From positions 3,876,001 to 3,940,000 of the forward strand of contig NZ_CP102258.1 of assembly GCF_025146565.1 (NCBI RefSeq): DNA of 64,000 bases, written 5' to 3'. Numbering within the stretch: the stretch's first letter is position 1; the number at the start of each line of letters is the position of its first letter. Source of the DNA: Bacteroides eggerthii. Its GTDB lineage: Bacteria > Bacteroidota > Bacteroidia > Bacteroidales > Bacteroidaceae. The notes beneath the pieces are model-generated. The model did no database searches. It saw only the letters and a list, made by a program, of their open reading frames with translations, and was not told the origin of the DNA. Shown one piece after another: positions 1 through 62,905 of this stretch. Position numbers and translations under genes: made by a program.

Positions 1-185
1 ATGCAGGATTGTCGTGCAGCATATATGGCATTGCACATATATGGATGATGCCGCATTCACATCATGCACCACCTGTGGCAGGCAAGCAATACCCCTTACA
101 GGACAATGTTTCAATGTATGCCCTCATGCACTGTGCCAAAAGTAGCGGCTATTTTTGAAACTTCCACCAACATTTCCCCTACCTG

Positions 186-215
186 ACATCAGATGTCGTC
201 AGATGTCATCAAATG
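186..215 (-). repeat. Triple 10-bp repeat, cluster 1
   Basis: Three tandem 10-bp units, read on the minus strand as catttgatga, catctgacga and catctgatgt. The last unit ends 41 nt before an exact -7 box (TACTTTTG at 144-137, minus strand). No TTTG sits at -33, so an activator bound to the repeats is a reasonable inference. The regulated gene would lie left of the window. Three more clusters with the same units occur at 48961, 60020 and 62876. Confidence 0.75.
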
Positions 216-42082: not shown

Positions 42083-42104
42083 TATGATACTAAAAAACAA
42101 GGTT

Positions 42105-42725
42105 ATGAAAGGAGTAAAAGGCTCAGAAACAAAAAGATTAATCAGGGAAGCTGCATACAAACAGTTTCTGACAAAAGATTACAACACGGTTCCCCTGAAG
42201 GAGATAGAAAAAAGTCTGAATTTATCAAGAGGATGTATGTCATATCATTATCCAAGCAAGCAAGAACTGTTTATTGATGTGATTGATTTTTACATTTTTC
42301 ACAAACAAGATGCCAAAAATAAGTTCAAGGACATTTCTCACACCTCTCTGCTTGAATTTATTGATTATTACATAAAGAAGGTGGAGGAAACGATGAATGC
42401 AATGAGGATCTATCTCATAGAAAAAGAGAAGACCAATATTACACGTGCATATCTTAACTTGATTTTGCAGGCAGAATATTTCTATCCGGGATTTAACGAG
42501 GCTTTCAACGAAATAACAAATAAGGAGATTAAATTATGGGAAAGAATATTTGTGAAGGCTGTTGAAACAAAAGAAATAAGATCCGATGTTAATCCTTCTA
42601 CATTGGCTTTGACATTTCGAATCCTGCTGTTTGGAAAATGTTTTCAGGATGCATTGGTGAATGGATTGCGAATAGAAGAACTGAAAGTAGTTCTTTATAA
42701 TCAATATGAACTAATTAAAAATTGA
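42105..42725 (+). CDS. TetR-family regulator 1
   Basis: This 206-residue TetR-like repressor has an N-terminal HTH (about 4-55: TKRLIREAAYKQFLTKDYNTVPLKEIEKSLNLSRGCMSYHYPSKQELF), including the typical YHYPSKQEL end, and a helical ligand-binding domain (about 60-206). An earlier ATG at 42084 is unlikely because it overlaps the -7 box. It lies 4 bp before the KAS III gene, so both share a transcript. Operator-like palindromes upstream and at the rteA-like promoter are its candidate targets. The ligand may be a product of the adjoining KAS III enzyme; this is inference. Confidence 0.85.
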   Translation: MKGVKGSETKRLIREAAYKQFLTKDYNTVPLKEIEKSLNLSRGCMSYHYPSKQELFIDVIDFYIFHKQDAKNKFKDISHTSLLEFIDYYIKKVEETMNAMRIYLIEKEKTNITRAYLNLILQAEYFYPGFNEAFNEITNKEIKLWERIFVKAVETKEIRSDVNPSTLALTFRILLFGKCFQDALVNGLRIEELKVVLYNQYELIKN

Positions 42726-44049: not shown

Positions 44050-44105
44050 ACCATGTTTGGATGTTGATTGCGTCTATGCTATTTTTTTATAATATAGGCA
44101 GTAGG

Positions 44106-44630
44106 ATGGACCCGAATTTGAAACAGCGGATTATAGAGGAGGCATACAGGTTATTCATCACAAAAGGAATGAAGCAGACCTCATTCTGTGATGTGGCTGT
44201 TGCCGTGCATAAATCCAAAGGGGCTGTCATACACTACTTTCCTTCCAAAAAGAAACTGATTGATGCGGTTGTCAGAATGCGTTTTTTCCCCGACTCGCAG
44301 ATTTCTTGTGAAATGTATTCTTTGGCTGACAAGGATTGGAATGAGTTTTTAAGGCAATACAGGAATCCGATAGAACGGGTGATAAACAGTTTTCCCGAAC
44401 ATCTGAATGGCAATCTCCTGATATGTTATATGCAGTTTGTTTCCTCCGCCCATGAATATATGGACGAATTTCCACAAATGTATCAGCAACTTCTTGTCCG
44501 GGAACAGGACTTTCTTTCCAATGTGGCTTATGGTCATAAAATAAGTTTGAAGGATGCCAAGGCGTTCAGCAGACAGGCATTGAACACTTCTATTGGTAAG
44601 ACTTTCTTGGGGATGTTCTCAGAAATTTAG
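44106..44630 (+). CDS. TetR-family regulator 2
   Basis: From ATG 44106 (MDPNLKQRIIEEAYRLF) this is a 174-residue TetR-like protein; an earlier in-frame ATG at 44061 would add 15 hydrophobic residues that do not belong to the fold. The HTH (about 3-52) ends with VIHYFPSKKKLIDAVV. The C-terminal domain is helical and short for the family. It lies between the KAS III gene and the large palindrome at the rteA-like promoter, 120 bp downstream of its stop, so it is the nearest candidate to bind there. Confidence 0.8.
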   Translation: MDPNLKQRIIEEAYRLFITKGMKQTSFCDVAVAVHKSKGAVIHYFPSKKKLIDAVVRMRFFPDSQISCEMYSLADKDWNEFLRQYRNPIERVINSFPEHLNGNLLICYMQFVSSAHEYMDEFPQMYQQLLVREQDFLSNVAYGHKISLKDAKAFSRQALNTSIGKTFLGMFSEI

Positions 44631-48960: not shown

Positions 48961-48990
48961 CATCTGATGACATTTGATGACATCTGATGA
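48961..48990 (+). repeat. Triple 10-bp repeat, cluster 2
   Basis: Three tandem units (catctgatga, catttgatga, catctgatga), then a part unit (cac). They end exactly 40 nt before an exact -7 box, TACCTTTG (49031-49038), which has no TTTG at -33. The layout suggests an activator that contacts RNA polymerase from about -85 to -55 at the operon of the DUF4099 gene. Confidence 0.8.
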
Positions 48991-49030
48991 CACCTTTTTG
49001 AAAATCAGCATATTATTTGGAAATACCCCA

Positions 49031-49038
49031 TACCTTTG
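49031..49038 (+). promoter_or_regulatory. -7 box of the DUF3945-topoisomerase operon
   Basis: TACCTTTG is an exact match. The transcript would start near 49045, so a TTG start at 49036 is ruled out and ATG 49078 is chosen for the first gene. Confidence 0.6.
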
Positions 49039-49077
49039 AAGCGTCAAAGCAATTCATTAACCCCTAAAAGAAAAGGT

Positions 49078-50916
49078 ATGGCACAAGAAAAGACCCCGAA
49101 CGAAAAGCCCAAACGGACTCGGAAGCCGAAGGCCGGAAGTGATGCTCTCCCGGTGGAACAGATTACGGAATTGATGCTGGTTCATAACAAGAACGATCCG
49201 AAATTCGGAGTACAGGCTGTCAGTGAAATTGACAAGGACGGAAAAGCGAAGACGGTTCCGGCGGACGAGAAGAATGAAAACTCATTCCTGAAATTCGACA
49301 AGAATTCGAGTATTCTCGAAAACTTCATCAAGAATTTTTGGAGCCAGCTCAAGGAACCTACCCATTTCCGCCTGCTCCGCATGACCTACCACGACTACAA
49401 GGTGAACAAGCAGGCCATCAGGGATTTGTCGGAGGGAAAGCAGACGGATGCGGTGAAAGAGTTCCTCAAACGCTACGAAATCCGTCCGAGAGAAAACAAG
49501 AAGGAACAAAGTGTAAACCAAAAAGAAACAACAGCTATGGCAGACAAAGAGACACAACCGCAGGAACCCCTGCAACAGAGCGAAGTACAGCAGGCGGCAC
49601 AGCAACAGCAGCAGCCCCAGGCTCAACAGGCAGCGCAGGAGTCGCAAGGACCGCGTTACCGGTATAATGAGAACATGGTCAACTGGGAGGAGTTGGAAAA
49701 GGTCGGAATCTCAAAGGCTTCGCTGGAACAGCAGGGACTCCTTGATTCCATGCTGAAGGGCTACAAGACCAACAAACTGGTGCCCCTGACCATCCATCTT
49801 TCCGGTTTGCTGACAGCCAAACTGGATGCAAGGCTCTCACTCATCCCGCAACAGGACGGACAGGTGGGACTTGCCATTCACGGCATACGCAAGGAACCGC
49901 AGTTGGAACGTCCTTATTTCGGGTTTAACTTTAACGAGGAGGACAAGAAGAACCTGCGTGAGACCGGCAACATGGGGCGTGTGGCGGAACTCAATCTGCG
50001 CGGAAGTGAATATACCCCCTGTCTGATTTCCATCGACAAGAGCACCAACGAGCTGGTTGCCGTCCGTCAGGAGCACGTTTACATCCCGCAGGAAGTGAGC
50101 GGGGTCAAACTTACCGCAGAGGAAATCAGGCTGCTGAAGGAGGGACAGCCTGTCAAAGTGGAGGGCATGACTTCCAAAGCGGGCAAGGAATTCGATGCCA
50201 CACTCCAGTACAGTGCCGAGCGCAGGGGACTGGAATTCATCTTTCCGAAAAACCAGATTTTCAACGAACGTTCCATCGGAGGCGTGCCTCTCTCGCCCAC
50301 CCAGATAAAAATGCTCAGCGAAGGACATACCATTCTGGTGGAAGACATGAAGTTCAGGAACAGGAATGACACCTTCTCGTCCTTTGTAACGATAGACAAG
50401 GTAACGGGGCGCCCGAACTACACGCGGCACAATCCGGAAACCGGAGAGATTTATATTCCAAAGGAAATCTGCAACGTGCAGCTGACTGCCGAAGACAGGG
50501 AAACCCTGCGCAAGGGACAGCCGGTCTATCTGGAAAACATGATCGGGCGCAACGGGGAGGAATTCTCCTCGTTCGTCAAGCTGGATATGAATACCGGCAG
50601 GACGATGTATTCACGCACGCCGAACGGATTCAACGAGCAGCAGGCACCGCGTATTCCGGCGGAGGTTTACGGGCACGTGTTCACGGCACAGGAAAAAGCG
50701 AACCTCCAGGATGGCAAGACTTTGCTTGTCGAAGGGCTGAAAAACAACGGGCAGACCTTCAGTTCCTACCTGAAAGTCAATCCCTATTCCGGGCAGTTGC
50801 AGTATTTTCAGGAAAATCCGGACATCCGCAGGGACACTTCCCGCCGTGCCACACAGACGGAAACCGCACAGGGACAGCAGCAGGAGCAGAAGAAGGGTGC
50901 ATCGCAGGCGGTATAG
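49078..50916 (+). CDS. DUF4099/DUF3945 repeat protein
   Basis: This 612-residue protein is typical of Bacteroidales conjugative elements. Order: basic start (KPKRTRKPK), a helical domain (about 25-140), a Gln/Ala-rich linker (about 155-195), a DUF4099 domain (about 200-275, NWEELEKVGISKASLEQQGLLDSMLKGYKTNKLVPL) and four DUF3945-like repeats (about 280-585), each with a pattern such as LTAEEIRLLKEGQPVKVEGM. The function of these domains is not established. It is first in an operon with a stand-alone DUF4099 protein and the topoisomerase, and it is headed by the 10-bp repeat cluster. Confidence 0.8.
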   Translation: MAQEKTPNEKPKRTRKPKAGSDALPVEQITELMLVHNKNDPKFGVQAVSEIDKDGKAKTVPADEKNENSFLKFDKNSSILENFIKNFWSQLKEPTHFRLLRMTYHDYKVNKQAIRDLSEGKQTDAVKEFLKRYEIRPRENKKEQSVNQKETTAMADKETQPQEPLQQSEVQQAAQQQQQPQAQQAAQESQGPRYRYNENMVNWEELEKVGISKASLEQQGLLDSMLKGYKTNKLVPLTIHLSGLLTAKLDARLSLIPQQDGQVGLAIHGIRKEPQLERPYFGFNFNEEDKKNLRETGNMGRVAELNLRGSEYTPCLISIDKSTNELVAVRQEHVYIPQEVSGVKLTAEEIRLLKEGQPVKVEGMTSKAGKEFDATLQYSAERRGLEFIFPKNQIFNERSIGGVPLSPTQIKMLSEGHTILVEDMKFRNRNDTFSSFVTIDKVTGRPNYTRHNPETGEIYIPKEICNVQLTAEDRETLRKGQPVYLENMIGRNGEEFSSFVKLDMNTGRTMYSRTPNGFNEQQAPRIPAEVYGHVFTAQEKANLQDGKTLLVEGLKNNGQTFSSYLKVNPYSGQLQYFQENPDIRRDTSRRATQTETAQGQQQEQKKGASQAV

Positions 50917-50970: not shown

Positions 50971-51246
50971 ATGAATACGGATCAGAATACCCGTCATATT
51001 TATAAGACGGAAGATATCGACTGGGACGGTCTGAAGGCCGCAGGTATCAGTAAGAAACAACTGGAAGCGGAAGGCAACATGGAACTGTTGCTGCAAGGAA
51101 AGGAAACGGGCATCGTTCCGCTGAAACTCCATATTTCGGTCCTCAGCCTGACAATGGATGCCACGCTGAAGCTGGTACCCGACGGCAACGGCAGGCCGGT
51201 TATGGAAATAAACGGTCTCCGTCAGAAGGAGGAGGCGGCAGTTTGA
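50971..51246 (+). CDS. Stand-alone DUF4099 protein
   Basis: This 91-residue protein repeats the DUF4099 domain of the gene before it: IDWDGLKAAGISKKQLEAEGNMELLLQGKETGIVPLKLHISV, aligned with WEELEKVGISKASLEQQGLLDSMLKGYKTNKLVPLTIHLSG upstream. It ends with GNGRPVMEINGLRQ, again like the longer protein. A duplication of that domain is the simplest origin. It lies 54 bp downstream and 72 bp before the topoisomerase ATG, so it is probably co-transcribed. Function is unknown. Confidence 0.75.
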   Translation: MNTDQNTRHIYKTEDIDWDGLKAAGISKKQLEAEGNMELLLQGKETGIVPLKLHISVLSLTMDATLKLVPDGNGRPVMEINGLRQKEEAAV

Positions 51247-51318
51247 CCGGGAAACAATAAGTATAACTCACGTTCCGTGCCGTTCCTGACGGTACGGAAC
51301 ATCAAAAGGAAAAAGAAT

Positions 51319-53091
51319 ATGATAGCGATAGTGACTGACAAGCCCAATGTGGGCAGAGAGATAGCAAGGGTTTTGGGAGCTGACAGAAAAGAGAACGGAT
51401 ATATGAGCGGAAACGGATACATGGTAACATGGACATACGGCAACATGCTTTCCCTGGCGATGCCGAAAGATACCGGTACGGCATGGGTGGAGCGGGAGAA
51501 CTTCCCCCTGCTGCCGCCTCCTTTTCTGACGGTACGGCATGTAAAGACGGACACGGGATGGAATCCCGACATCAATGCGGTGCTCCAGTTGAAGGTGATA
51601 GCCGGGGTGTTCGATGCGTGTGACACCATTGTTGCGGCAACCGACGCTTCCCGCGAGGGGGAAATGCTGTTCCGGTATCTTTATCGTTTTTTGGGATGCA
51701 GGAAACCTTGCCTCCGCCTGTGGATCTCCTCCTTGACGGACGAAGCCATTGCCAAAGGAATGGAAAACCTTCGTCCTTGCAGCCTGTTCGACAACTTGTT
51801 TTTGGCGGCAGACAGCCGCAACAAGGCCGACTGGCTTCTTGGAGTCAATTCGAGCTATGCCGTCTGCAAGGCGGTCGGTTTCGGGAACAACTCGCTTGGA
51901 AGGGTACAGACCCCTGTATTGGCAGCGATAAGCGGACGGTACAGGGAAAGGGAAAATCACATTCCCGCAGACAGCTGGCCCGTATTCGTCAGCCTCTGCA
52001 AGAACGGGAAGATAATAAAGATGCGGCATGTGGAAGATTTCTGCAACCGCCGGGATGCCCTGGAACTTTACGAGGACTGCAAGGCGGCAGGATATGCCCG
52101 TATCACGGCAGTCAGCAGCCGGACTGAGGAAATCACCGCACCTGCCCTTTATAACCTGACCGGGCTTCAGAAGGATGCGAACCGTTACCATAACCTGACA
52201 GCCATACGGGTGCAGGAAATTACCCAAAGCCTGTACGAGAAAAAACTGATCTCCTGCCCGCGCACTTCCAGCCGTCTGCTGCCCGGAGACATGTATGACA
52301 TGTTGCCTCCGGTTATGGAAAAGCTGCTGTCCGGCAAGGAATTCCGCCAATATGCCGGTATGATCGACCTTGCTGCAAGGAAAGGCGTAACCGGAAATCA
52401 GGACACGGCGGAGCATCATGCCATTGTCATCACCGGCATACAGCCGGGGGAACTGGACAGGGAGGAAAGGCTGGTTTACACCCTTGTTGTCGGCAGGATG
52501 CTTGAAACGTTCATGCCGCCCTGCAAGGTGGAATATACGACGGTTGAAGCGGTCTGTGCCGCACGCAAGTTCCGAATCCGTACATACCGTATTCTGGAAA
52601 CGGGGTGGCTCGGTATCTTTCAGAGGGAACGGCTTGTCGCGGAAGACAACGACCTCTGTCCCGTACCCCCTGAACTTTTTCGGGAGGAGAAACTGCCGGT
52701 AACGGGATGCAGTCTTATACACAGGAAATCGCTGCCCGCTGCCCCTTATACGGATGAGGAACTGGCAGACTATATGGACAAGACCGGTCTGGGAACCGCA
52801 TCCACGCGCACGAATATCATCCGTACGCTTCTGGAGCGTAAATATATCCGGTATTCGGGCAAATACATTATCCCGACCCCGAAAGGTCTTCTTTTATATG
52901 AAACGGTACGCGGAATGAAAGTGGCTGACTCCTCCCTCACCTCCGGCTGGGAAGCGGAGCTAGCACGGATTGAACGGGGAGAACTCACACAGAAAGAATT
53001 CCTGGATGGTGTATTGGAAACGGTAAATGAGGTTACCGGTGAGATTTTCCGGAAACTTTCGGAAGATGAACGGCCGCATGGTTCCATATAG
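51319..53091 (+). CDS. topB: Type IA topoisomerase homologue lacking the catalytic Tyr
   Basis: From ATG 51319 this is a 590-residue TopB-like protein; a GTG frame start at 51277 adds nothing of the fold. The Toprim region reads VTDKPNVGREIARVLG (the usual catalytic Glu is Asp) and ATDASREGE (the second Asp of DxDxE is Ser). The motif that should hold the nucleophilic Tyr, normally ITYPR[ST], reads LISCPRTSS, with Cys at residue 313 (codon 52255-52257). The rest, including the GxGTxSTR-like GLGTASTRTNII and the VRGMKV end, is intact. It may have lost strand cleavage and keep only DNA binding. Confidence 0.8.
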   Translation: MIAIVTDKPNVGREIARVLGADRKENGYMSGNGYMVTWTYGNMLSLAMPKDTGTAWVERENFPLLPPPFLTVRHVKTDTGWNPDINAVLQLKVIAGVFDACDTIVAATDASREGEMLFRYLYRFLGCRKPCLRLWISSLTDEAIAKGMENLRPCSLFDNLFLAADSRNKADWLLGVNSSYAVCKAVGFGNNSLGRVQTPVLAAISGRYRERENHIPADSWPVFVSLCKNGKIIKMRHVEDFCNRRDALELYEDCKAAGYARITAVSSRTEEITAPALYNLTGLQKDANRYHNLTAIRVQEITQSLYEKKLISCPRTSSRLLPGDMYDMLPPVMEKLLSGKEFRQYAGMIDLAARKGVTGNQDTAEHHAIVITGIQPGELDREERLVYTLVVGRMLETFMPPCKVEYTTVEAVCAARKFRIRTYRILETGWLGIFQRERLVAEDNDLCPVPPELFREEKLPVTGCSLIHRKSLPAAPYTDEELADYMDKTGLGTASTRTNIIRTLLERKYIRYSGKYIIPTPKGLLLYETVRGMKVADSSLTSGWEAELARIERGELTQKEFLDGVLETVNEVTGEIFRKLSEDERPHGSI

Positions 53092-53388: not shown

Positions 53389-53601
53389 ATGAAACTGAAA
53401 TTCATCGAAAACATCTGCAGGCAAGTGGTCGCACTGGTTCTGCTTACGGGAATATGCCTGCTTTACTGCAAGGGCGTCATTCCCGTGTATCTGTCTGTCC
53501 TGTTCCTTATGTCCGGAACACTGGTCCGTCTCGCCTTCAGGACATTCACCTTTGTCTTGAAAACAATCCTTGTCCTGATTGTCATGGGCATGCTTGTATA
53601 A
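53389..53601 (+). CDS. Small membrane protein before the PRTRC cassette
   Basis: This 70-residue protein is made almost wholly of two or three hydrophobic helices (about 10-27, 29-42 and 53-70), with a short basic N-terminus (MKLKFIENICR). No family is recognised. It is 18 bp before the next small gene and is in line with the PRTRC operon. Small membrane proteins of this kind are common in Bacteroidales conjugative regions. It could be a membrane anchor or an entry-exclusion type protein; nothing in the sequence decides this. Confidence 0.6.
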   Translation: MKLKFIENICRQVVALVLLTGICLLYCKGVIPVYLSVLFLMSGTLVRLAFRTFTFVLKTILVLIVMGMLV

Positions 53602-53619
53602 CCATCAAATGCAGAAGAT

Positions 53620-53829
53620 ATGAGAACTTACACATTTACATCCTCGGCTCCGGTCATGCCGGCTGCATGGCCTGCCACAAACCGGACAACACCTGTCAAA
53701 AGACAGCCTCCCTGTACGACAGACGGGCCCAGACGTATCGGCTACTATCTGGAACCGTTGAAAGGCATCGCCTCGAATCCGGACAGGCAGAGAATCCTGA
53801 AGGATTTTTTCAAGGAAACTTATGTATAA
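53620..53829 (+). CDS. Small unknown protein
   Basis: This 69-residue soluble protein has a Pro/Thr-rich first half (SSAPVMPAAWPATNRTTPVKRQPPC) and a charged helical end (NPDRQRILKDFFKETYV). The reading frame, spacing (18 bp before, 19 bp after) and codon use are consistent with a gene of this operon. It contains two Cys-free halves with a single Cys in the middle. No family is recognised. Its disordered first half and short tail helix suggest a binding peptide, but that is a guess. Confidence 0.5.
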   Translation: MRTYTFTSSAPVMPAAWPATNRTTPVKRQPPCTTDGPRRIGYYLEPLKGIASNPDRQRILKDFFKETYV

Positions 53830-53848
53830 CATTTTAAATTTTACCATT

Positions 53849-54823
53849 ATGTTTTTTCAAGCAATCAACCAAATGATTACGACAGGCACAGACCTGAGTA
53901 TCAACATCAGACGGGTAAACGACAATCTGACGGTAGCCGTCGTTCCCAGACGGTCGGGAGTAAAGGCCGGAGAACGCATTGTCCCGCTCATCCTGAACGG
54001 TACGCCGGAAGAACTGGATGCAGGATTCCTGCAGGCTGTCGGTGCACCCGTACAGAAAGCGCAAGGTATCCTTACCAACCTGGAATCGTTCGAGAAGCAG
54101 GCAGAGCAGGCGGTTTCACAAAGCAAAACCTCCAAGCCTACGGTGGAAAAGGAGTCCAAGGAAGCCCGTGAAAAACGGGAAAAGATGGAAAAACTGTTGA
54201 AGAAAGCTGAGGATGCCACGGCAGGAAAGCATTATTCCGAAGCATTGACCTGGTTCAGGCAGGCTAAGGTACTGGCACAGCCGGACAAACAGGCGGACAT
54301 TGACAAAAAAATGGCGGAAGTGCAGAAGAAGGCATCCGAGGGAAGTCTGTTCGACATGGTACAGCCGCCGGTAACTGCTCCACAGCCATCCTTGCAGCAA
54401 TCGGCTCCACAATCGATGGCAGCCCCGACGCCACAATACCGGAGCGGAGAGCAAGTTCCGATGTTCATGCCCGAACAGCCTGCCCCGGCTCCGCAACCCG
54501 TTGCACAGCCGCAAGTCCAGCCCGTACAATATAGGCAACCTGCACCGCAACCGGTTCCTCAGCAGGCTGCTCCACAACCGCAAGACATCCAGTTCCATCA
54601 ACCGGTACAGGTGCCGCAACCGCAATTGGCGGACAATCGCTGGATGCAACAACCGGCTCCGTCACAGTATGCAACGGTGCAGGAGGCTGCAATGTATAAC
54701 TTCGACAAGGATTACGAGGATGACCGGGAGCTGCTCAGGGAGGACCCTTATGCGGAATATCCGGACTTTCCGAAGGAATGCCGCATGACGGATATGGCAC
54801 AAATGGATATGGTATATTGTTAA
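53849..54823 (+). CDS. PRTRC system protein E-like
   Basis: From ATG 53849 (MFFQAINQMI) this is a 324-residue protein with an N-terminal beta-rich domain (about 1-80, DLSINIRRVNDNLTVAVVP, IVPLILNGTPEELDAGFL), a charged coiled-coil middle (about 85-165, with a TPR-like AEDATAGKHYSEALTWFRQAK), a long Gln/Pro/Ala-rich disordered stretch (about 175-285) and an acidic end. The N-terminal pattern matches PRTRC_E. The disordered part may act as a scaffold for the E1/E2-like partners downstream. It is 21 bp before the ubiquitin-like gene. Confidence 0.75.
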   Translation: MFFQAINQMITTGTDLSINIRRVNDNLTVAVVPRRSGVKAGERIVPLILNGTPEELDAGFLQAVGAPVQKAQGILTNLESFEKQAEQAVSQSKTSKPTVEKESKEAREKREKMEKLLKKAEDATAGKHYSEALTWFRQAKVLAQPDKQADIDKKMAEVQKKASEGSLFDMVQPPVTAPQPSLQQSAPQSMAAPTPQYRSGEQVPMFMPEQPAPAPQPVAQPQVQPVQYRQPAPQPVPQQAAPQPQDIQFHQPVQVPQPQLADNRWMQQPAPSQYATVQEAAMYNFDKDYEDDRELLREDPYAEYPDFPKECRMTDMAQMDMVYC

Positions 54824-54844
54824 ACCCTATAAAAGAAAAATAAT

Positions 54845-55066
54845 ATGGCACTTGAAATCAAAGGATTGCAGAGAGTATTCAAATTCAAGAAGGACTCTAT
54901 GGAGCTCGTGTTGGATGATCCGAACAGCGAACTGTCCGTAAACGAGGTGATGGACTTCTATTCCATGACCTACCCTGAACTGACCACGGCAACGGTATAT
55001 GGTCCTGAGTGGGAGGACGACAAGGCGGTTTACCGCTTCAAGACAACCATCGGAGTGAAAGGGTAA
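54845..55066 (+). CDS. PRTRC protein C, ubiquitin-like
   Basis: This 73-residue protein matches PRTRC_C (prokaryotic ubiquitin-like family): RVFKFKKDSMELVLDDPNSELSVNEVMDFYSMTYPELTTATVYGPEW, with the characteristic YPELTTA. The predicted fold is a beta-grasp. The chain ends ...TTIGVKG, with Gly as the very last residue, as needed for a mature ubiquitin-like modifier that an E1 would activate without prior trimming. E2-like and ThiF/E1-like proteins are encoded downstream in the same operon. Conjugation to a target has not been shown for this family. Confidence 0.85.
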   Translation: MALEIKGLQRVFKFKKDSMELVLDDPNSELSVNEVMDFYSMTYPELTTATVYGPEWEDDKAVYRFKTTIGVKG

Positions 55067-55100
55067 GCGGTATGAACAAGAAAAAAAAGGATAAGGAAAC

Positions 55101-56210
55101 ATGCAGACAGCTTTCAGAACAAGCCAAGGATGGACTGGCACGGCTGATTATTCTCTCAGTAAGTTCGTCCCACATCCGAAGGGGAACCTCGGAACGGAAA
55201 AGAAGGATACTTCCGCCACCGGGAAGCACAATGCTTTTCTGACCGGTAGAATCACACCCCTTGCACCGGATTATTGGCATCAGGATATGGATAATGATTC
55301 TCCGATCAATCTCACGACTCCGGAAAATTTTGACTATCTCTACCGGTCGGCATCAAGATATGCGGAACTTATGGGCATAAAACTCCCTTTCCGATACAGG
55401 AAAGGGGGGTGCCCCCGCCTGAATATTACCGAGTTGTACAGAGTTATGGAAGAGTGTGTACCGGAGTGTATCAATCTGGAAAAGAAAAGCGGAAGGCTGC
55501 ATTTCTGTCTGTTCCGCCATCACGACTGGCCGGAACCTGCTTTGTTCTGGATTCCGGTTGATTTTACGGAACGGCTTCCGGCACCATTGAAGGACATTGT
55601 CAGGGAGTTCATCCGGCAATTTGTCCGGCATCACGGGCTGTACGATGTTACCGAGACATTTTATTATGACTTTGCCATAGAAGAGCTGGAAGACTGGGGA
55701 AACCGGGATTCCGATGCTTCCCCGAAGGAAATCAGGGCGAACAGACGGCTGGCGGATTCCTATCAGTCTGGAAAACGGATGAAAGCACTCAGACGGATGT
55801 CGGGCAAACCGTTCTGCAAGTCTTTGGAAGAGGCTGTGCGGAATTACCGGACAAAAAAGGAAAAAGAGCTGAAGCTGTTGGAACTGATAGAGGACGGCAT
55901 GGCATTGATTACTCCGGAAAGCCCGGTCCTGACAGGCTACCAGTACGATTGGGCTTATGAAGAGGAATGCGATTTTCCCCCGGTGGGAATGGAAAGCCAG
56001 GTCATGCTGGTCTATTCTACTGGTGATACACTGGCGGAGTGTGTCAAGGAGTATATGAATTCGGACTACCGGGAGGTCTATGCCCTTACTCCGGTCACTT
56101 ACAAGCTACTGACACCGGAAACAGACTGTCTTTTTCAGATGGATGACTATCCGGAAAGGCTTTCCAGATGGTTGGTGCGTTTTACAGACTATATTGATGA
56201 CAACTTTTAA
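55101..56210 (+). CDS. PRTRC system protein F-like
   Basis: This 369-residue protein lies between the PRTRC C and B genes, which is the place of PRTRC_F. It is soluble, mixed in structure, and shows ENFDYLYRSASRYAELMGIKLPFRYR near 75-100, FWIPVDFTERLPAPLKDIVREFIRQFVRHHGL near 150-180 and a C-terminal region with DTLAECVKEYMNSDYREVYALTPVTYKLL. No catalytic motif is evident. The family assignment is by context and overall pattern; function is unknown. Confidence 0.65.
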   Translation: MQTAFRTSQGWTGTADYSLSKFVPHPKGNLGTEKKDTSATGKHNAFLTGRITPLAPDYWHQDMDNDSPINLTTPENFDYLYRSASRYAELMGIKLPFRYRKGGCPRLNITELYRVMEECVPECINLEKKSGRLHFCLFRHHDWPEPALFWIPVDFTERLPAPLKDIVREFIRQFVRHHGLYDVTETFYYDFAIEELEDWGNRDSDASPKEIRANRRLADSYQSGKRMKALRRMSGKPFCKSLEEAVRNYRTKKEKELKLLELIEDGMALITPESPVLTGYQYDWAYEEECDFPPVGMESQVMLVYSTGDTLAECVKEYMNSDYREVYALTPVTYKLLTPETDCLFQMDDYPERLSRWLVRFTDYIDDNF

Positions 56211-56220
56211 AACGAATGAA

Positions 56221-56922
56221 ATGAATGAACTGACTAAGAAACTTCAACAGGTGATGGTTCCCAAAGCGGCACTGATTGCTTACGAATACAGTGATGGCCG
56301 CTATGGACACGGGACATATTATCTCGAACTGCATCCGATCAACGACAGAGGCCGGATGGAGGCTGCCGTCCCCGTTACGTATGAATTTATGGACTCCCTT
56401 GTGGAATACTATACGGATAACCGGCAGGATGTACCGCATGGGAAAATCCCCGCCAATATGCTGTGGTGCGATACACGCAAGGGACACGAGAGGTACATCT
56501 GGTACAATCCTCCGGGAAAACGGCAGATGTTCTTTTCCGAAAGGCTGAATATTCCGGACGGGACATTCCATGTACCCGGTGTCATTTACAGGGTTTCCGG
56601 TGACAGACTGGAAATTTTTGCCTATAAGGGAGAAGCACCGGCAGAAGACAGCCCGCTTTTCCTTGCCCCGTTTTTCAATGTAACGGGAAGCAGTGTCTGT
56701 CTGGGAAATGCCTCGTTGACTCCTCCGGAAAACATGACTTTCTCAAAACTCCTTGAGCATTGGGAAAAACGCTTCTGGCTCAGTGAATTTTCCCATTTGG
56801 GAGGAAGCAGGAACCCCACCGAAAGCAATCTGGTTTCGGTGACGGAAAAGGCACGGACCAATCCGTTTGACTATAACGAATTGAAACCTATGGACAGACA
56901 ACTTAAAGACTTATTGGTATGA
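56221..56922 (+). CDS. PRTRC protein B, E2-like
   Basis: From ATG 56221 this is a 233-residue protein of the PRTRC_B / Prok-E2_D group, a circularly related E2-like fold. Typical segments: YEYSDGRYGHGTYYLELHPIN, VTYEFMDSLVEYY, MLWCDTRKGHERYIWYNPP and LFLAPFFNVTGSSVCLGNA. Cys160 in the last segment is the natural candidate for a thioester-forming residue. It overlaps the ThiF gene by 4 bp (ATGA), a sign of tight coupling to its E1-like partner. The family has no proven activity. Confidence 0.8.
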   Translation: MNELTKKLQQVMVPKAALIAYEYSDGRYGHGTYYLELHPINDRGRMEAAVPVTYEFMDSLVEYYTDNRQDVPHGKIPANMLWCDTRKGHERYIWYNPPGKRQMFFSERLNIPDGTFHVPGVIYRVSGDRLEIFAYKGEAPAEDSPLFLAPFFNVTGSSVCLGNASLTPPENMTFSKLLEHWEKRFWLSEFSHLGGSRNPTESNLVSVTEKARTNPFDYNELKPMDRQLKDLLV

Positions 56923-57698
56923 AAAAGATTCATTATACAGACAGATACCTGCTCAATCCCCACCATCCCGTAACCGTTTTCGTAATCGGTGCGGGCGGAA
57001 CCGGATCGCAGGTGGCCACCAATCTGGCAAGAATGAGTATCGCATTGCAGGCACTCGGACATCCGGGCCTGCACGTGACGGTTTTTGACCCCGATACTGT
57101 CACGGAAGCGAATATCGGACGCCAGTTGTTCAGCGAATCCGAGCTCGGACTGAACAAGGCGGTGGCACTTGTAACCCGTATCAACCGCTTTTTCGGCTTT
57201 TCATGGGAGGCAAAAAGGCAATGCTATCCGTCAGGAACATCAGATTCCGTTTTGGCGAATATCATCATCACCTGCACGGATACCACCCGTTCACGGACCG
57301 GTCTGTGGCGTTTTTTGAAAAAGCATAGGGAACGTTCATACGATGACGAGAAATCACCGATATACTGGATGGATTTCGGCAATGCTCAGACCACCGGACA
57401 AGTACTGATAGGAAATGTCAAAAGCAAGATACCGCAGCCCTCCTCCATTGAATACCTGCCTATACCCAAGATGAACGTCATAACGGAGGAAGTCCCTTAT
57501 TCCACCATCAGGGAGAAGGATTCGGGACCGAGCTGCTCGCTGACGGAGGCATTGCAAAAGCAGGATCTCTTCATCAATTCCATGTTGGCACAAATCGGAT
57601 GCGACGTCCTGTGGCGCATGCTCAGGGAAGGAAGAACGTTCTACCGGGGAGCCTATCTCAATCTTGACACGTTACGGGTAAACCCCATCCCGGTATAG
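56919..57698 (+). CDS. PRTRC ThiF-family E1-like protein
   Basis: This 259-residue protein has the ThiF/E1 adenylation fold: GAGGTGSQVATNLARM (nucleotide loop, about 26-40), VTVFDPDTVTEANIGRQLF (the Asp and Arg that bind ATP, about 57-75) and NKAVALVTRIN, then IITCTDTTRSR with a Cys. No CxxC zinc site is present. E1-like proteins adenylate the C-terminal Gly of a ubiquitin-like partner, here PRTRC C. It ends the operon, followed by a strong bidirectional terminator. Confidence 0.85.
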   Translation: MKKIHYTDRYLLNPHHPVTVFVIGAGGTGSQVATNLARMSIALQALGHPGLHVTVFDPDTVTEANIGRQLFSESELGLNKAVALVTRINRFFGFSWEAKRQCYPSGTSDSVLANIIITCTDTTRSRTGLWRFLKKHRERSYDDEKSPIYWMDFGNAQTTGQVLIGNVKSKIPQPSSIEYLPIPKMNVITEEVPYSTIREKDSGPSCSLTEALQKQDLFINSMLAQIGCDVLWRMLREGRTFYRGAYLNLDTLRVNPIPV

Positions 57699-58505: not shown

Positions 58506-58832
58506 TTAGCATAACTTTCCCATGTTGGTATTCCCGCCCTTATCTTTTTTCCCACGTTTCTGTAAAAACTCCTGTATTTCCGAGCTTCTGTAGAAGTTTT
58601 TCCCGTTATCGTCCGTCTGGTAATAACGGATCAGCCCTTTTTCCCTGTAACGGGCGACTGTCCGCAATGACACGTTTAGCAGTTTGGCAATGTCATAGTT
58701 GTCCAAAAGCTCGTCTCCGTTCAGGCAGTCCTTCACGCGTCCCATCCTGTCCAGTTTCTTTTCTATACGGTCAAAACCTTCCACTATGGTCATTATCATT
58801 TTTTCAAGCACTTCATTGTCTATATACATCAT
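58506..58832 (-). CDS. MerR-type HTH protein
   Basis: This 108-residue protein has a helical, coiled-coil-like start (MIMTIVEGFDRIEKKLDRM) and a C-terminal HTH_17 (excisionase-like) domain: LLDNYDIAKLLNVSLRTVARYREKGLIRYYQTDDNGKNFYRSSEIQEFLQKRG. Such small proteins act as excisionase/recombination directionality factors or as regulators in Bacteroidales elements. An alternative start is one codon in. Two further proteins of this domain type lie at 60112 and 60402. Confidence 0.8.
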   Translation of the reverse strand: MMYIDNEVLEKMIMTIVEGFDRIEKKLDRMGRVKDCLNGDELLDNYDIAKLLNVSLRTVARYREKGLIRYYQTDDNGKNFYRSSEIQEFLQKRGKKDKGGNTNMGKLC

Positions 58833-60019: not shown

Positions 60020-60049
60020 CATCTGATGACATCTGATGCCGTTTGATGA
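60020..60049 (+). repeat. Triple 10-bp repeat, cluster 3
   Basis: Three tandem units (catctgatga, catctgatgc, cgtttgatga), then catcc. The last ends 30 nt before TATTTTCG (60080-60087), a one-mismatch -7 box for the HTH gene at 60112. The spacing is one helical turn less than in clusters 1 and 2. Confidence 0.75.
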
Positions 60050-60111
60050 CATCCTTTTGCCCACGACTTTTACTTCCCGTATTTTCGTGCCGGACAAAAA
60101 AAGCAGAGTTT

Positions 60112-60405
60112 ATGGAGTTTGTATGTATCGAAGCTAAGGCATTCATGGAAATGAATGAGGCTTTGGAAGCCGTTGAAAAGAAAATGCGTGAAACATGCGG
60201 AGGAGGCATCTGTAGTATGGATGACTGGATTGACAATCAGGAAGCGTGTATGCTTATGAATGTCTCGCCCCGAAAGCTGTTGCAACTTCGGAGAAGCAGG
60301 ATTATCCCTTACAGCCATATAGACCGCAAGGTATATTACAGGCGTCAGGATATTATACGTTATTTGGAAAACAGTATTCACCATGTAACCCCCGAATCCT
60401 TATGA
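60112..60405 (+). CDS. HTH_17-type DNA-binding protein
   Basis: From ATG 60112 (MEFVCIEAKAFMEM) this is a 97-residue protein with a helical start and a MerR/excisionase-like HTH: DNQEACMLMNVSPRKLLQLRRSRIIPYSHIDRKVYYRRQDIIRYL. The earlier ATG at 60043 overlaps the repeat cluster and is unlikely. Its stop overlaps the next gene's start (ATGA). Proteins of this type in pairs are standard in Bacteroidales ICEs, where they help excision or regulate neighbouring genes. Confidence 0.8.
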   Translation: MEFVCIEAKAFMEMNEALEAVEKKMRETCGGGICSMDDWIDNQEACMLMNVSPRKLLQLRRSRIIPYSHIDRKVYYRRQDIIRYLENSIHHVTPESL

Positions 60406-60704
60406 CTCAATTCATACTGACCAAAGAAAGCCCTGAGATTATACGTTTTTTTCGGAACATAAGCACCCTGTCCAAAATGCTGGATGACCAGGAGAAAAAC
60501 TTTCGTCCGGTTCTGAACGGAGAGCGTTACATTACCGACAGCGAGTTGGCGGAGAAATTAAAGCTGACACGAAGGACGCTGGCTGATTACAGAATGAACG
60601 GCAGGCTGCCCTATTACAAAGTAGGAGGCAAACTTTTATATAAGGAAAAGGACATTCTGGTTCTGTTGGAAAAAAACAGGGTGGAAACATTTGATCATTG
60701 GTAA
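60402..60704 (+). CDS. HTH_17-type DNA-binding protein, second of pair
   Basis: This 100-residue protein begins in a 4-bp overlap with its partner. It has a helical N-terminus (SPEIIRFFRNISTLSKMLDDQ) and an excisionase-like HTH: ITDSELAEKLKLTRRTLADYRMNGRLPYYKVGGKLLYKEKDILVLLEKN. It most resembles the first protein of the pair and the one at 58506 in domain type. Excisionase or regulator function is expected from the family; no integrase is in the window. Confidence 0.8.
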   Translation: MTQFILTKESPEIIRFFRNISTLSKMLDDQEKNFRPVLNGERYITDSELAEKLKLTRRTLADYRMNGRLPYYKVGGKLLYKEKDILVLLEKNRVETFDHW

Positions 60705-61052
60705 TACCCGTTTCCAAGTATCACGACATAAACATAAGAAAGTCATGGAAACGATAAAAAGAGAGGGTTTCATGGCTTTCTTATTACAGAACCGGCAGAT
60801 TATAAGTTTTTTTATTTTGGAATCATATATCGGTCAGCATTTCTATTTCTTACATGTAAAGGTAGCCTTTTGCTTCTGATGCGCAAGGCGGTCCTTCGGA
60901 CTGGTTGGCTGAAAAAATCATCCTCGCTTCGCTGCGGTATTTTTTCGCCAAGCCTTGCACTATCAGAGCAAAAGACAAATGTCTGACATGTAAGAGATAG
61001 AAATACCGGCTTTGCCAAAGCCGGAAATGTTTAATCACAAAATAAGAAAATT
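60705..61052. other. Intergenic region with hairpin C
   Basis: No gene is supported in this 348-bp stretch. A 44-codon frame at 60745-60879 runs into the hairpin arm. It contains hairpin C and a GC stem ccggcttt/aaagccgg (61006-61024) before the next gene. Confidence 0.55.
60843..61000. repeat. Large inverted repeat, hairpin C
   Basis: Outer arms ctatttcttacatgt (60843-60857) and acatgtaagagatag (60986-61000) pair with one mismatch. The inner core from gcaaggcgg to cgccaagccttgc, with tcatcctcgcttcgctgcggta at the top, is nearly the same as hairpin B. The repeated core in two places shows a mobile or conserved element. Confidence 0.7.
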
Positions 61053-61832
61053 ATGATTCAGACAACAAACAAGTATAGCAAAGAAACTTTCATCCGCCTG
61101 AACTACTGGTATGATCGGATACACGGACTTGTACAGGAAGATATAGATAAAGTGAATACCATGGTGGAACACATCGAAAAGACACGCTCTGACCGGTATC
61201 CACGGACAGGAGACAACCTGTTCTTTGTTTCCGGTTATGGTGAGCGTTCCCGGCTGTTCTTTATAGATGCCGTATATGGAGATAACATTATACTCCGGGA
61301 TTTTTCCCGTGTTCCATTCGTGTCCCGTGACAAAGAGGGTATCAAATGCGATATGCATGGCGGTGAGTGTCTGTTGGTAAAGGCAGGCGATGTAAGGTTC
61401 AAGGCATGGACTACCGGCCGTTTCAAGCATTGGGGGCATTACGGGGCATGTGAAAACGGGGAGGTTTACTACGATGCGAAAATAGCCCTGTGGGAGTGTG
61501 GCGCACCTGAACAGCCGGAAAGCCGGGAATGGTTCAAAATCCATATCCGCAAAAACACCCGGCCGAGCGAGGATATGTACGTCGGAGAAATATCCTGTAA
61601 GGATGAGGATGGACTCAAACAGTTTGTCAACGACCATGAAGGTACCATATTCGCAGAAGAGGATTCTCAGGAAATGGTCATGCTGTGTTTCAGGCATTCC
61701 GACATGAGGATTTCCCCGGAAGAATGGGAAAAGATGGATTGTCCGGTATCCATGCGTGAGATATACGGACAAATGCATGAAGTAAAGATTGTAAAAGACC
61801 ATAAAACGCATCTGACCACATTCTACTATTAA
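61053..61832 (+). CDS. DUF4121-like conjugative-element protein
   Basis: This 259-residue protein begins 28 bp after a GC hairpin. It is soluble and rich in aromatic and charged residues: FIRLNYWYDRIHGLVQEDI, YGERSRLFFIDAVYGDNIILRDFSRVPFVSRD, GRFKHWGHYGACENGEVYYD and a C-terminal MVMLCFRHSDMRISPEEWEKM. I associate this pattern with the DUF4121 proteins of Bacteroidales mobile elements, though not with certainty. No catalytic motif is evident and its role is unknown. Confidence 0.6.
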   Translation: MIQTTNKYSKETFIRLNYWYDRIHGLVQEDIDKVNTMVEHIEKTRSDRYPRTGDNLFFVSGYGERSRLFFIDAVYGDNIILRDFSRVPFVSRDKEGIKCDMHGGECLLVKAGDVRFKAWTTGRFKHWGHYGACENGEVYYDAKIALWECGAPEQPESREWFKIHIRKNTRPSEDMYVGEISCKDEDGLKQFVNDHEGTIFAEEDSQEMVMLCFRHSDMRISPEEWEKMDCPVSMREIYGQMHEVKIVKDHKTHLTTFYY

Positions 61833-61932
61833 CATAGTATCACCACATGAAAAATCACCCTTGTTTTCTTCTGCCACATATGACAGGAAGGAAACAAGGG
61901 TATATCATCAGGCAGTCTTTTCAATACATCTA

Positions 61933-62796
61933 TTAGATATGGAGCAGATTGTTCTTCCTGCACAAATATTCATTCAGATCCTTATATCCGGAATATTCAT
62001 GCGAAAAATCGCATATACGGATTCCGTATTTGTCCTTTAATGCCTGCACCGCATTTTTCCCGGCGGTATCATTATCCAGACAGCAACGGATGCCGTCATA
62101 TTGTGAAAGGAAAGAAAAAGCCTTCTGTAAGTTACTGACAGAATTCAACACTATATAATCCCCCTCTTCCAAAGATGGAAAAGCCGGTCTGAAAGACAGA
62201 AAATCCATAAACCCCTCAAAAATATAGCAAATCCTGCTTTCCGGCGTGCTAATGATGCGACTGATGTCCTTGGGAGCAATACAAGCCTTGAAATACCTGT
62301 TCCTGATTTCGTACCCTCCGGAAATATTAGGGAAAGCGATGGCAAAATAATTCTTCCCATTCCGTTTAAAATGAGCTTCCCTGCATATTTTTCGGGCAGT
62401 TTCCAGATCGATGCACCGTTCCTTCAGATAAGTAAGCAGTATCCGGTTGGCAAGAGGAATGATTTTCAGATCTTGAAAGGCGAGATATGCCTTTTCAAAC
62501 GGACAGGAAACAGTAACCGGTTTCAGTACGGCTCTTTTATCCCCAATACACTGTAGTACATAACCTATATCTTGTGTCCGATAAATCTCCTTGGCCAACG
62601 TTATAATGTCCCCTCCCTTCCCCAGACCGAAATCATACCACAATTCCTTATGGAGGTCAACCTTGAAAGAGGCCTCCTTTTCCGTCCTGAAGGGCGATTT
62701 GTACCATACGCTGTTCCCACGCTGTATTACCGGTTCGTATCCGAATCCGGCTAAAAAATCAACAAGTCTGATGTTCTTTGCTTCTTGTATGTTCAT
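61933..62796 (-). CDS. Primase-like Toprim protein with lost zinc ribbon
   Basis: This 287-residue protein has the CHC2-Toprim layout of DnaG-like primases from mobile elements. The zinc-ribbon region reads YKSPFRTEKEASFKVDLHKELWYDFGLGKGGDIITL, where the usual Cys of CPFH and CFGCG are Ser and Leu, so zinc is unlikely to be held. Toprim residues: IFEGFMDFLSF (Glu) and CLDNDTAGKNAVQ (DxD). It may prime the transferred strand. The third cluster-type promoter with 10-bp repeats lies upstream (62876-62905). Confidence 0.8.
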   Translation of the reverse strand: MNIQEAKNIRLVDFLAGFGYEPVIQRGNSVWYKSPFRTEKEASFKVDLHKELWYDFGLGKGGDIITLAKEIYRTQDIGYVLQCIGDKRAVLKPVTVSCPFEKAYLAFQDLKIIPLANRILLTYLKERCIDLETARKICREAHFKRNGKNYFAIAFPNISGGYEIRNRYFKACIAPKDISRIISTPESRICYIFEGFMDFLSFRPAFPSLEEGDYIVLNSVSNLQKAFSFLSQYDGIRCCLDNDTAGKNAVQALKDKYGIRICDFSHEYSGYKDLNEYLCRKNNLLHI

Positions 62797-62875
62797 GGCA
62801 TCTCATTTTCATGGATTAGTTCACTATTAATACACGACAAAGAACCGCTTTATATCCGAAACATAAAAAGCAGTG

Positions 62876-62905
62876 TCATCAGATGTCATTAAAAGTCATC
62901 AGATG
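62876..62905 (-). repeat. Triple 10-bp repeat, cluster 4
   Basis: Read on the minus strand: catctgatga, cttttaatga, catctgatga, then cac. The middle unit is worn. The last unit ends 30 nt before GTTCTTTG (62845-62838), a two-mismatch -7 box of the primase-like gene. The layout equals cluster 3. Confidence 0.7.

Follow-up and report, generated by a model that had tools for sequence, protein, structure and literature searches.

Triple 10-bp direct repeats before five operons of a Bacteroidales integrative and conjugative element carrying a type VI secretion system: candidate operators of an element-encoded HTH_17 activator

Several excisionases and related small helix-turn-helix (HTH) proteins provide the background for the repeat arrays described here, which belong to an integrative and conjugative element (ICE) of Bacteroides eggerthii that carries a type VI secretion system (T6SS). 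The excisionases of the Bacteroidales ICE CTnDOT are described as activators of transfer genes (PMC9956884), and Xis2d is reported to bind the interval between the mob and tra genes of that element. RdfS of ICEMlSymR7A, a winged-helix (wHTH) excisionase of the HTH_17 type, is oligomeric, forms filaments, acts on ICE promoters and autoregulates (PMC11963761). Apl of phage 186 is both an excisionase and a transcription regulator that uses direct repeats one helical turn apart, with three adjacent operators needed for efficient binding in vitro (PMC7498355), and BldC, a small MerR-like wHTH protein, assembles head-to-tail on direct repeats, with a footprint at whiI from -50 to -80 (PMC5859096). 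The stretch of DNA analyzed in this work, which we call the window, consists of 64,000 nucleotides of the B. eggerthii genome (C1:3876001-3940000) and contains most of the T6SS ICE; coordinates given without a contig are window positions.

Five operons of this ICE are preceded by arrays of three 10-bp direct repeats. A first-pass annotation of the window had listed four such arrays, at 186..215 (minus strand), 48961..48990 (plus), 60020..60049 (plus) and 62876..62905 (minus), and all four are found at these positions (arrays 1 to 4), with scores of 27, 29, 27 and 27, respectively, the score being the number of matches out of 30 to (CATCTGATGA)x3. The count of four held for the window, to which a genome scan added a fifth array, located 5.1 kb to the left of the window and 80 bp before the start of TraE (DUF4134), with a score of 29. 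When two units with at most two mismatches were searched for in the whole genome, the 18 matches fell in only five places, all in this element, compared to a single match for the reversed pattern. Chance repeats were rejected because the best score among 100 first-order Markov windows was 22, against 27-29 for the window arrays, the controls were near zero, and no other genome of the order matched at two or fewer mismatches.

Each array points at a putative promoter of the published Bacteroides type, TTTG followed by TAnnTTTG (PMC7366714), at one of two distances from the last unit to the -7 box: 30/31 nt (class A) or 40/41 nt (class B). Array 1, before the parA-DUF3408 operon, and array 2, before the DUF3945-topB-PRTRC operon, belong to class B, with exact boxes TACTTTTG (137..144, minus strand) and TACCTTTG (49031..49038, plus strand) at gaps of 41 and 40, the latter gap being kept in relatives. 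Arrays 3 and 4, before a pair of HTH genes and a primase-like gene, belong to class A; both have a gap of 30, to the one-mismatch box TATTTTCG (60080..60087, plus strand; several relatives have an exact box at 30 or 31) and to the non-canonical box GTTCTTTG with two mismatches (62838..62845, minus strand), respectively. All these gaps and box grades had been given correctly in the first-pass annotation; its statement that a good -33 TTTG is absent from all sites does not hold for the HTH promoter, where a TTTG at 60056..60059 (plus strand), conserved in place, stands 20 nt before the -7 box. The array before traE lay outside the data on which that annotation was made, and its exact TATCTTTG box at a gap of 31 is thus an independent success of the spacing rule. 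The target beyond the left edge of the window, for which the annotation gave no name, is ParA (C1:3874988-3875749), followed by DUF3408, and the proposed list of targets was too narrow: with the tra operon included, the regulon would govern genes of the mating apparatus as well as DNA processing.

The spacing rule holds well beyond this genome. From 30 element stretches, we collected 63 arrays with a score of at least 22 (at least 25 for the B. eggerthii element), with those within 40-100 nt of the end of a stretch excluded, and reduced these to 31 non-redundant arrays, each more than 20% different from the others across 90 bp. Conservation covers a block of 35 bp, TGA(CATCTGATGA)x3CA, with nearly flat flanks except for a TTTG-like peak just downstream. 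Position 5 of the unit is T in 92 of the 93 units and position 9 is G in all 93, which helps fix the orientation of the unit. Within the 72 positions tested after each of the 31 arrays, there are 21 exact TAnnTTTG boxes, every one on the array strand and at a gap of 30 (8 boxes), 31 (5), 40 (5) or 41 (3), with none elsewhere; in shuffles, 0.07 boxes are expected at the same gaps, and the maximum in 500 shuffles was 1. The two distance classes one helical turn apart, as originally proposed, therefore account for all 21 boxes. Among the ten arrays without an exact box, six have a one-mismatch box at 30/31 and four have only two-mismatch boxes there, three of the four being primase promoters with GTTCTTTG. 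This odd box has identical letters in all six elements that possess the promoter of the primase-like gene.

Overall, the spacer between array and box has changed in sequence, with its length preserved. At the parA promoter, the gap is 41 in most elements and 30 in one Parabacteroides faecalis element, a one-turn swap inside a single promoter class that agrees with the earlier suggestion of a fixed face of the helix. A TTTG exactly 6 nt past the array is present in 9 of the 23 class A arrays (0.3 expected), and because this position is 20-21 nt before the -7 box, class A promoters often have a -33 element. For class B, the TTTG 6 nt past the array occurs in two of the eight arrays, too far from the box, and only one of the eight has a TTTG 20-21 nt before the box. 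These regularities support the proposal of one regulon with arrays in an activator-like position.

The arrays were also looked for in other genomes. Three units with at most three mismatches were found in 4 of 201 genomes of the family, including that of B. eggerthii itself, and with at most two mismatches, in 1 of 393 genomes of the order, again the same genome (0 of the 392 others). An exact degenerate scan of named genomes gave 50 stretches, of which 20 belong to 11 Bacteroidales species or metagenome-assembled genomes (MAGs) and 30 come from outside Bacteroidales. All 11 of these Bacteroidales genomes contain the three-unit pattern with at most three mismatches (57 matches, two of which are one array in a shifted register), and the reversed pattern gave no match in the family, the order or the 11-genome scan. 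Five sites in one element, before the same target genes, are present in Phocaeicola vulgatus ATCC 8482 (two elements with five sites each), B. timonensis, B. rodentium and P. massiliensis; B. stercorirosoris has five sites by pattern only. B. fluxus has four, its primase-like gene lying inside the tra region with no array before it. The remaining array-bearing genomes have partial sets, mostly spread over separate contigs. With regard to relatives that would keep the promoters and lose the repeats, the comparison came out in favor of the proposed regulon for this ICE clade.

When the survey was made from the genes, for 30 HTHb loci (HTHb being the first gene of the HTH pair) out of many more HTHb matches and for 30 TraE loci, arrays with a score of at least 19 preceded 9 and 4 of the loci, respectively. 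The 26 array-less TraE loci are not a fair measure of absence because traE, in the one such element that was mapped, comes after parA-type genes of the same orientation. Within elements, the units of different arrays drift together (permutation p = 0.0002 for eight elements, near-copies omitted), a pattern that unequal overall drift rates can mimic; an excess at unit position 10 in B. fluxus (7 of 12 against 11 of 87, p = 0.001) was chosen after looking at the data. In a remnant in P. massiliensis (G204 C1:2987800-2989700), an HTH pair with its array faces a ParA fragment with DUF3408, and two element parts seem to be fused. Outside Bacteroidales, the degenerate pattern is found within longer tandem arrays in Alicyclobacillus and Streptomyces records (L073 5580-5668 and L076 3936-3994), and two viral contigs (L086 4215-4640 and L084 1-100) carry 10-bp tandem arrays that are much longer and built from a similar word (CATCTGACGA and CACCTGATGT).

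The candidate binders of the arrays are HTH_17 proteins of the element. Three are encoded in the window, the divergent HTHa (58506..58832, minus strand), HTHb (60112..60405, plus strand) and HTHc (60402..60704, plus strand), and all three match PF12728 above the cut-off. HTHc also matches the excisionase model TIGR01764, below the cut-off. For HTHb, the structure model is a winged helix with block means of the predicted local distance difference test of 92-94 over residues 41-80; it rests on an alignment of just four sequences, and its closest neighbors, at modest scores, are RdfS (the top Foldseek match), BldC and Xis excisionases. The model of HTHc is less good, and BldC is again among its Foldseek matches. 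The HTHb-HTHc pair follows directly behind an array in seven of the eight elements that were covered from the tra to the HTH region, the exception being B. clarus. Among 20 distinct loci scoring at least 21, the distance from the array end to the HTHb start is 59-64 bp in 16, 78 bp in two and 185 bp in two. Furthermore, seven stand-alone loci combine the array with the pair, with no HTHa detected in a profile search and no match to TraE, TraG, TraM or TraQ in the 16-40 kb fetched. In one of these, contig C115 of B. caecigallinarum, 8 kb separate the two genes of the pair, and both are preceded by an array of their own with an exact box, at 30 for one and 40 for the other. On a 41-kb circle of P. 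distasonis, too, an array precedes the pair, and its box, at a gap of 30, has one mismatch. In a tree built from 49 HTHb homologues, the presence of the array requires 4 changes, compared to 15.3 with shuffled labels, although few forks are resolved and near-copies contribute to this difference. Among the columns listed, none in HTHb and two in HTHc were flagged as candidate specificity residues marking proteins from array-bearing loci, and nothing decisive emerged from these.

We propose that the triple repeat is the operator of an element-encoded activator, most likely one or both proteins of the HTH_17 pair at 60112-60704, that would turn on the five operons together, and, judging from sequence, we assign this reading a probability of about 0.6. 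Monomers of HTHb, HTHc or both would occupy TGA(CATCTGATGA)x3CA in a head-to-tail chain with one monomer per helical turn; the several bound monomers envisaged in the first-pass annotation would fit the three units. In class A, the loaded array would directly precede the -33 region and, in class B, lie one turn further up, such that both classes would present the same face to RNA polymerase, which would be contacted from either of two positions separated by one turn. Transcription of the five operons for transfer and DNA handling would then rise in concert, and the array before the pair itself, a possible autoregulatory site, would provide positive feedback and could make the decision to transfer switch-like. 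RteA/RteB could act above the HTH pair. Several observations weigh against or qualify this proposal. B. clarus has arrays at tra, parA and the topoisomerase operon as well as HTHa, but no HTHb; the place where the HTH pair would stand is occupied by unrelated long open reading frames (G205 C7:473942-480877). The HTHb search of one Prevotella MAG was likewise negative. Two of the seven stand-alone loci, in genomes G186 and G200, have weak arrays (21-22 of 30) with no box within one mismatch. Finally, the 31 arrays are not fully independent because many are homologous promoters of related elements.

Other proteins of the element might read the arrays in place of the pair. HTHa is the likely counterpart of Xis2c/Xis2d of CTnDOT, the excisionases of which are described as transfer-gene activators (PMC9956884), and it is present in each of the eight elements for which the stretch between tra and the HTH region was covered; one of these is B. 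clarus, where the arrays occur and the pair does not. Given that the profile did not detect HTHa in the 16-40 kb fetched at the seven loci that retain the array and the pair, we nevertheless regard it as an unlikely binder. RteB, an NtrC-type response regulator named as a candidate in the first-pass annotation along with the HTH proteins of the element, is encoded with RteA in this ICE and adjoins array 2 in three elements, and the regulatory hierarchy of CTnDOT places RteA/RteB over RteC and over the genes for excision and transfer. However, enhancer-type activators do not usually act from direct repeats one turn apart beside a -33/-7 promoter, and no RteB was found in the fetched stretches of the stand-alone array-pair loci. 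Moreover, the identity of RteB does not follow the arrays: the protein encoded in the window is 51.6% identical to RteB of the CTnDOT-type element in the same genome, which has no such arrays, compared to 41-42% for the RteB proteins of the array-bearing elements PvulA, PvulB, Brod and Bflu. On these sequence grounds, RteB is a very unlikely binder, and of the regulators proposed originally, an HTH protein of the element is the better candidate.

The arrays might also have a role other than activation. Repressor operators that silence the element, with induction by release, would have precedents in RdfS, which represses its own promoter, and in Apl, which is a repressor. Yet the arrays lie upstream of -33, off the core promoter, at two helically phased distances, and the scarcity of a -33 TTTG in class B, noted above, also speaks against this role, which we hold to be distinctly unlikely. 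Alternatively, the arrays could be centromere-like partition sites for DUF3408 or ParA partners that also regulate promoters, in the manner of omega of pSM19035, which binds partition sites and regulates promoters as well. An array does stand before the ParA-DUF3408 operon, and the five arrays are scattered over the element. This reading is weakened by the fixed gaps of 30/31/40/41 to the -7 box and by stand-alone array-pair loci that lack ParA and DUF3408 in the fetched stretch, such that the arrays do not track these genes; the G186 and G200 genomes have no ParA match anywhere at E <= 1e-10. In addition, DUF3408 of the window element is 27-48% identical to its homologues in remote array-bearing elements and 26% identical to that of the CTnDOT type, that is, not much closer to the former. 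A centromere-like function hence appears highly improbable.

Compared to the described systems, the T6SS ICE resembles CTnDOT in combining HTH_17 proteins with DUF3945 and topoisomerase genes, and array 1 lies in the mob-parA interval, which corresponds to the mob-tra interval reported to be bound by Xis2d. We use the names Xis2c, Xis2d and Exc for what we take to be the CTnDOT gene layout. The B. eggerthii genome contains a second ICE, of the CTnDOT type (C1:~368000-416000; L235-L237), with four HTH genes, DUF3945 and TopB-like genes, RteA/RteB and an RteC-family gene at 393561. In that element and in CTn214, the HTH, DUF3945 and topB genes form one block, whereas the T6SS ICE has DUF3945-topB and the HTH pair at separate places, with an array before each. 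The CTnDOT-type element also differs in having an RteC-family gene, which the T6SS ICE lacks. RteC was rejected as the regulator: the genome has two PF09357 matches, at C1:393561 and C1:1799134, neither in the T6SS ICE. The second of these RteC-family genes is distant from both elements.

RdfS is of the same wHTH HTH_17 excisionase type as the proteins of the pair, but its sites are described as lacking a consensus and its own promoter as repressed, in contrast to a strict 10-bp word repeated three times at fixed spacing before five promoters. Apl represses two phage promoters, whereas the layout here points to activation of five operons. BldC, a chromosomal developmental regulator of Streptomyces with low sequence identity, differs from the present case, in which two small HTH proteins are encoded together. 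The form of the site, direct repeats one DNA turn apart, is seen in all 31 non-redundant arrays, with HTH_17 proteins as the candidate binders. We searched a library of papers by topic and by the letters of the repeat, and the matches listed included no report of this repeat; a strict triple operator at two phased positions before five promoters is a variant that we did not find described and that would work like the excisionase-type activators of ICEs.

Of the genes behind the arrays, the tra operon (TraE/DUF4134, TraG, TraM and TraQ) and ParA-DUF3408 adjoin the window on its left. The ParA start is separated from its -7 box by a leader of ~390 nt (window 1-137; L011 17750-18137) with many short TGCATTGCA-like repeats, which could be a partition site or a leader RNA. 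Mobilization genes (MobC_2, relaxase and coupling protein), T6SS genes (TssR, TssD, TssC, a ClpV-like ATPase and a VgrG-like protein) and RteA/RteB-like genes are present in the window, and between the T6SS genes and RteA, there are two regulators of the TetR family (42084-42725 and 44061-44630) with no array nearby. The operon behind array 2 starts on the plus strand with a DUF3945/DUF4099 protein (49072..50916; PF13101, PF13351, PF13342), followed by a second DUF4099 protein (50971..51246; PF13351), a type IA topoisomerase similar to TopB/Exc (51277..53091; PF01131, PF01751) and, probably in the same operon, PRTRC-type genes for PRTRC_E, E2-D, ThiF and unknown proteins (53454..57698; PF19556, PF14460, PF00899). 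The target of array 4 is a Toprim/CHC2 primase-like protein (61933..62796, minus strand; PF13155, PF01807), after which comes a protein with no Pfam match (61035..61877, minus strand) that keeps the same order in several elements and likely belongs to the same operon.

The arrangement might extend beyond this clade. Upstream of HTHb homologues that lack a CATCTGATGA array with a score of at least 21, we detected an excess of the 10-bp period (mean z of 1.0 over 21 non-redundant promoters, compared to -0.38 to 0.19 for other periods), and several homologues outside the clade keep the 10-bp period and the gaps with a different word. A generic test, CAnnnGnTGm in three copies with a score of at least 15 of 20 and a box with at most one mismatch at a gap of 29-32 or 39-42, was positive for 12 of 34 non-redundant HTHb and parA promoters, most of the boxes carrying one mismatch, and for 0 and 1 of the 34 when the gap windows were displaced by five or fifteen. 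L161 and L317, two of the 12, come from relatives of this ICE clade, which leaves 10 outside it, and because the word was partly read off some of the tested sequences, we treat this result only as a lead. A weak candidate array (period-10 z of 2.8) also lies in the mob-parA interval of the CTnDOT-type element in this genome, which corresponds to the mob-tra interval that Xis2d is reported to bind. A plain period test of 15 non-redundant parA upstream regions, out of 20 fetched, gave a mean z of 1.69 for period 10, and as periods 8 and 12 were higher (2.48 and 2.68), that test alone is not evidence. A de novo scan (at least 70%) of other operons of small elements yielded a few scattered repeats, none with the second word. 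Tentatively, Bacteroidales mobile elements may share a grammar, in which three 10-bp units, each spanning one DNA turn and placed 30 or 40 nt from the -7 box, are read by element-encoded HTH_17 pairs, with private words of each clade (CATCTGATGA here, CAnnnGCTGC-like in other elements) preventing cross-talk; we consider this generalization possible rather than probable.

ICEs carrying a T6SS have spread widely among gut Bacteroidales species, and the accessible part of the report on this spread describes no transfer control circuit for them (PMC8102008). Through the arrays, the operons of the regulon become recognizable by a short, specific sequence, and the arrays also indicate the likely regulators and make the circuit testable. 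If the proposed grammar is true, several ICEs in one cell, as is the case here, would each switch on without cross-talk, and if the degenerate form holds elsewhere, it would help explain how transfer genes throughout the group are switched on by excisionase-type proteins and how ICEs that share a cell avoid activating one another.
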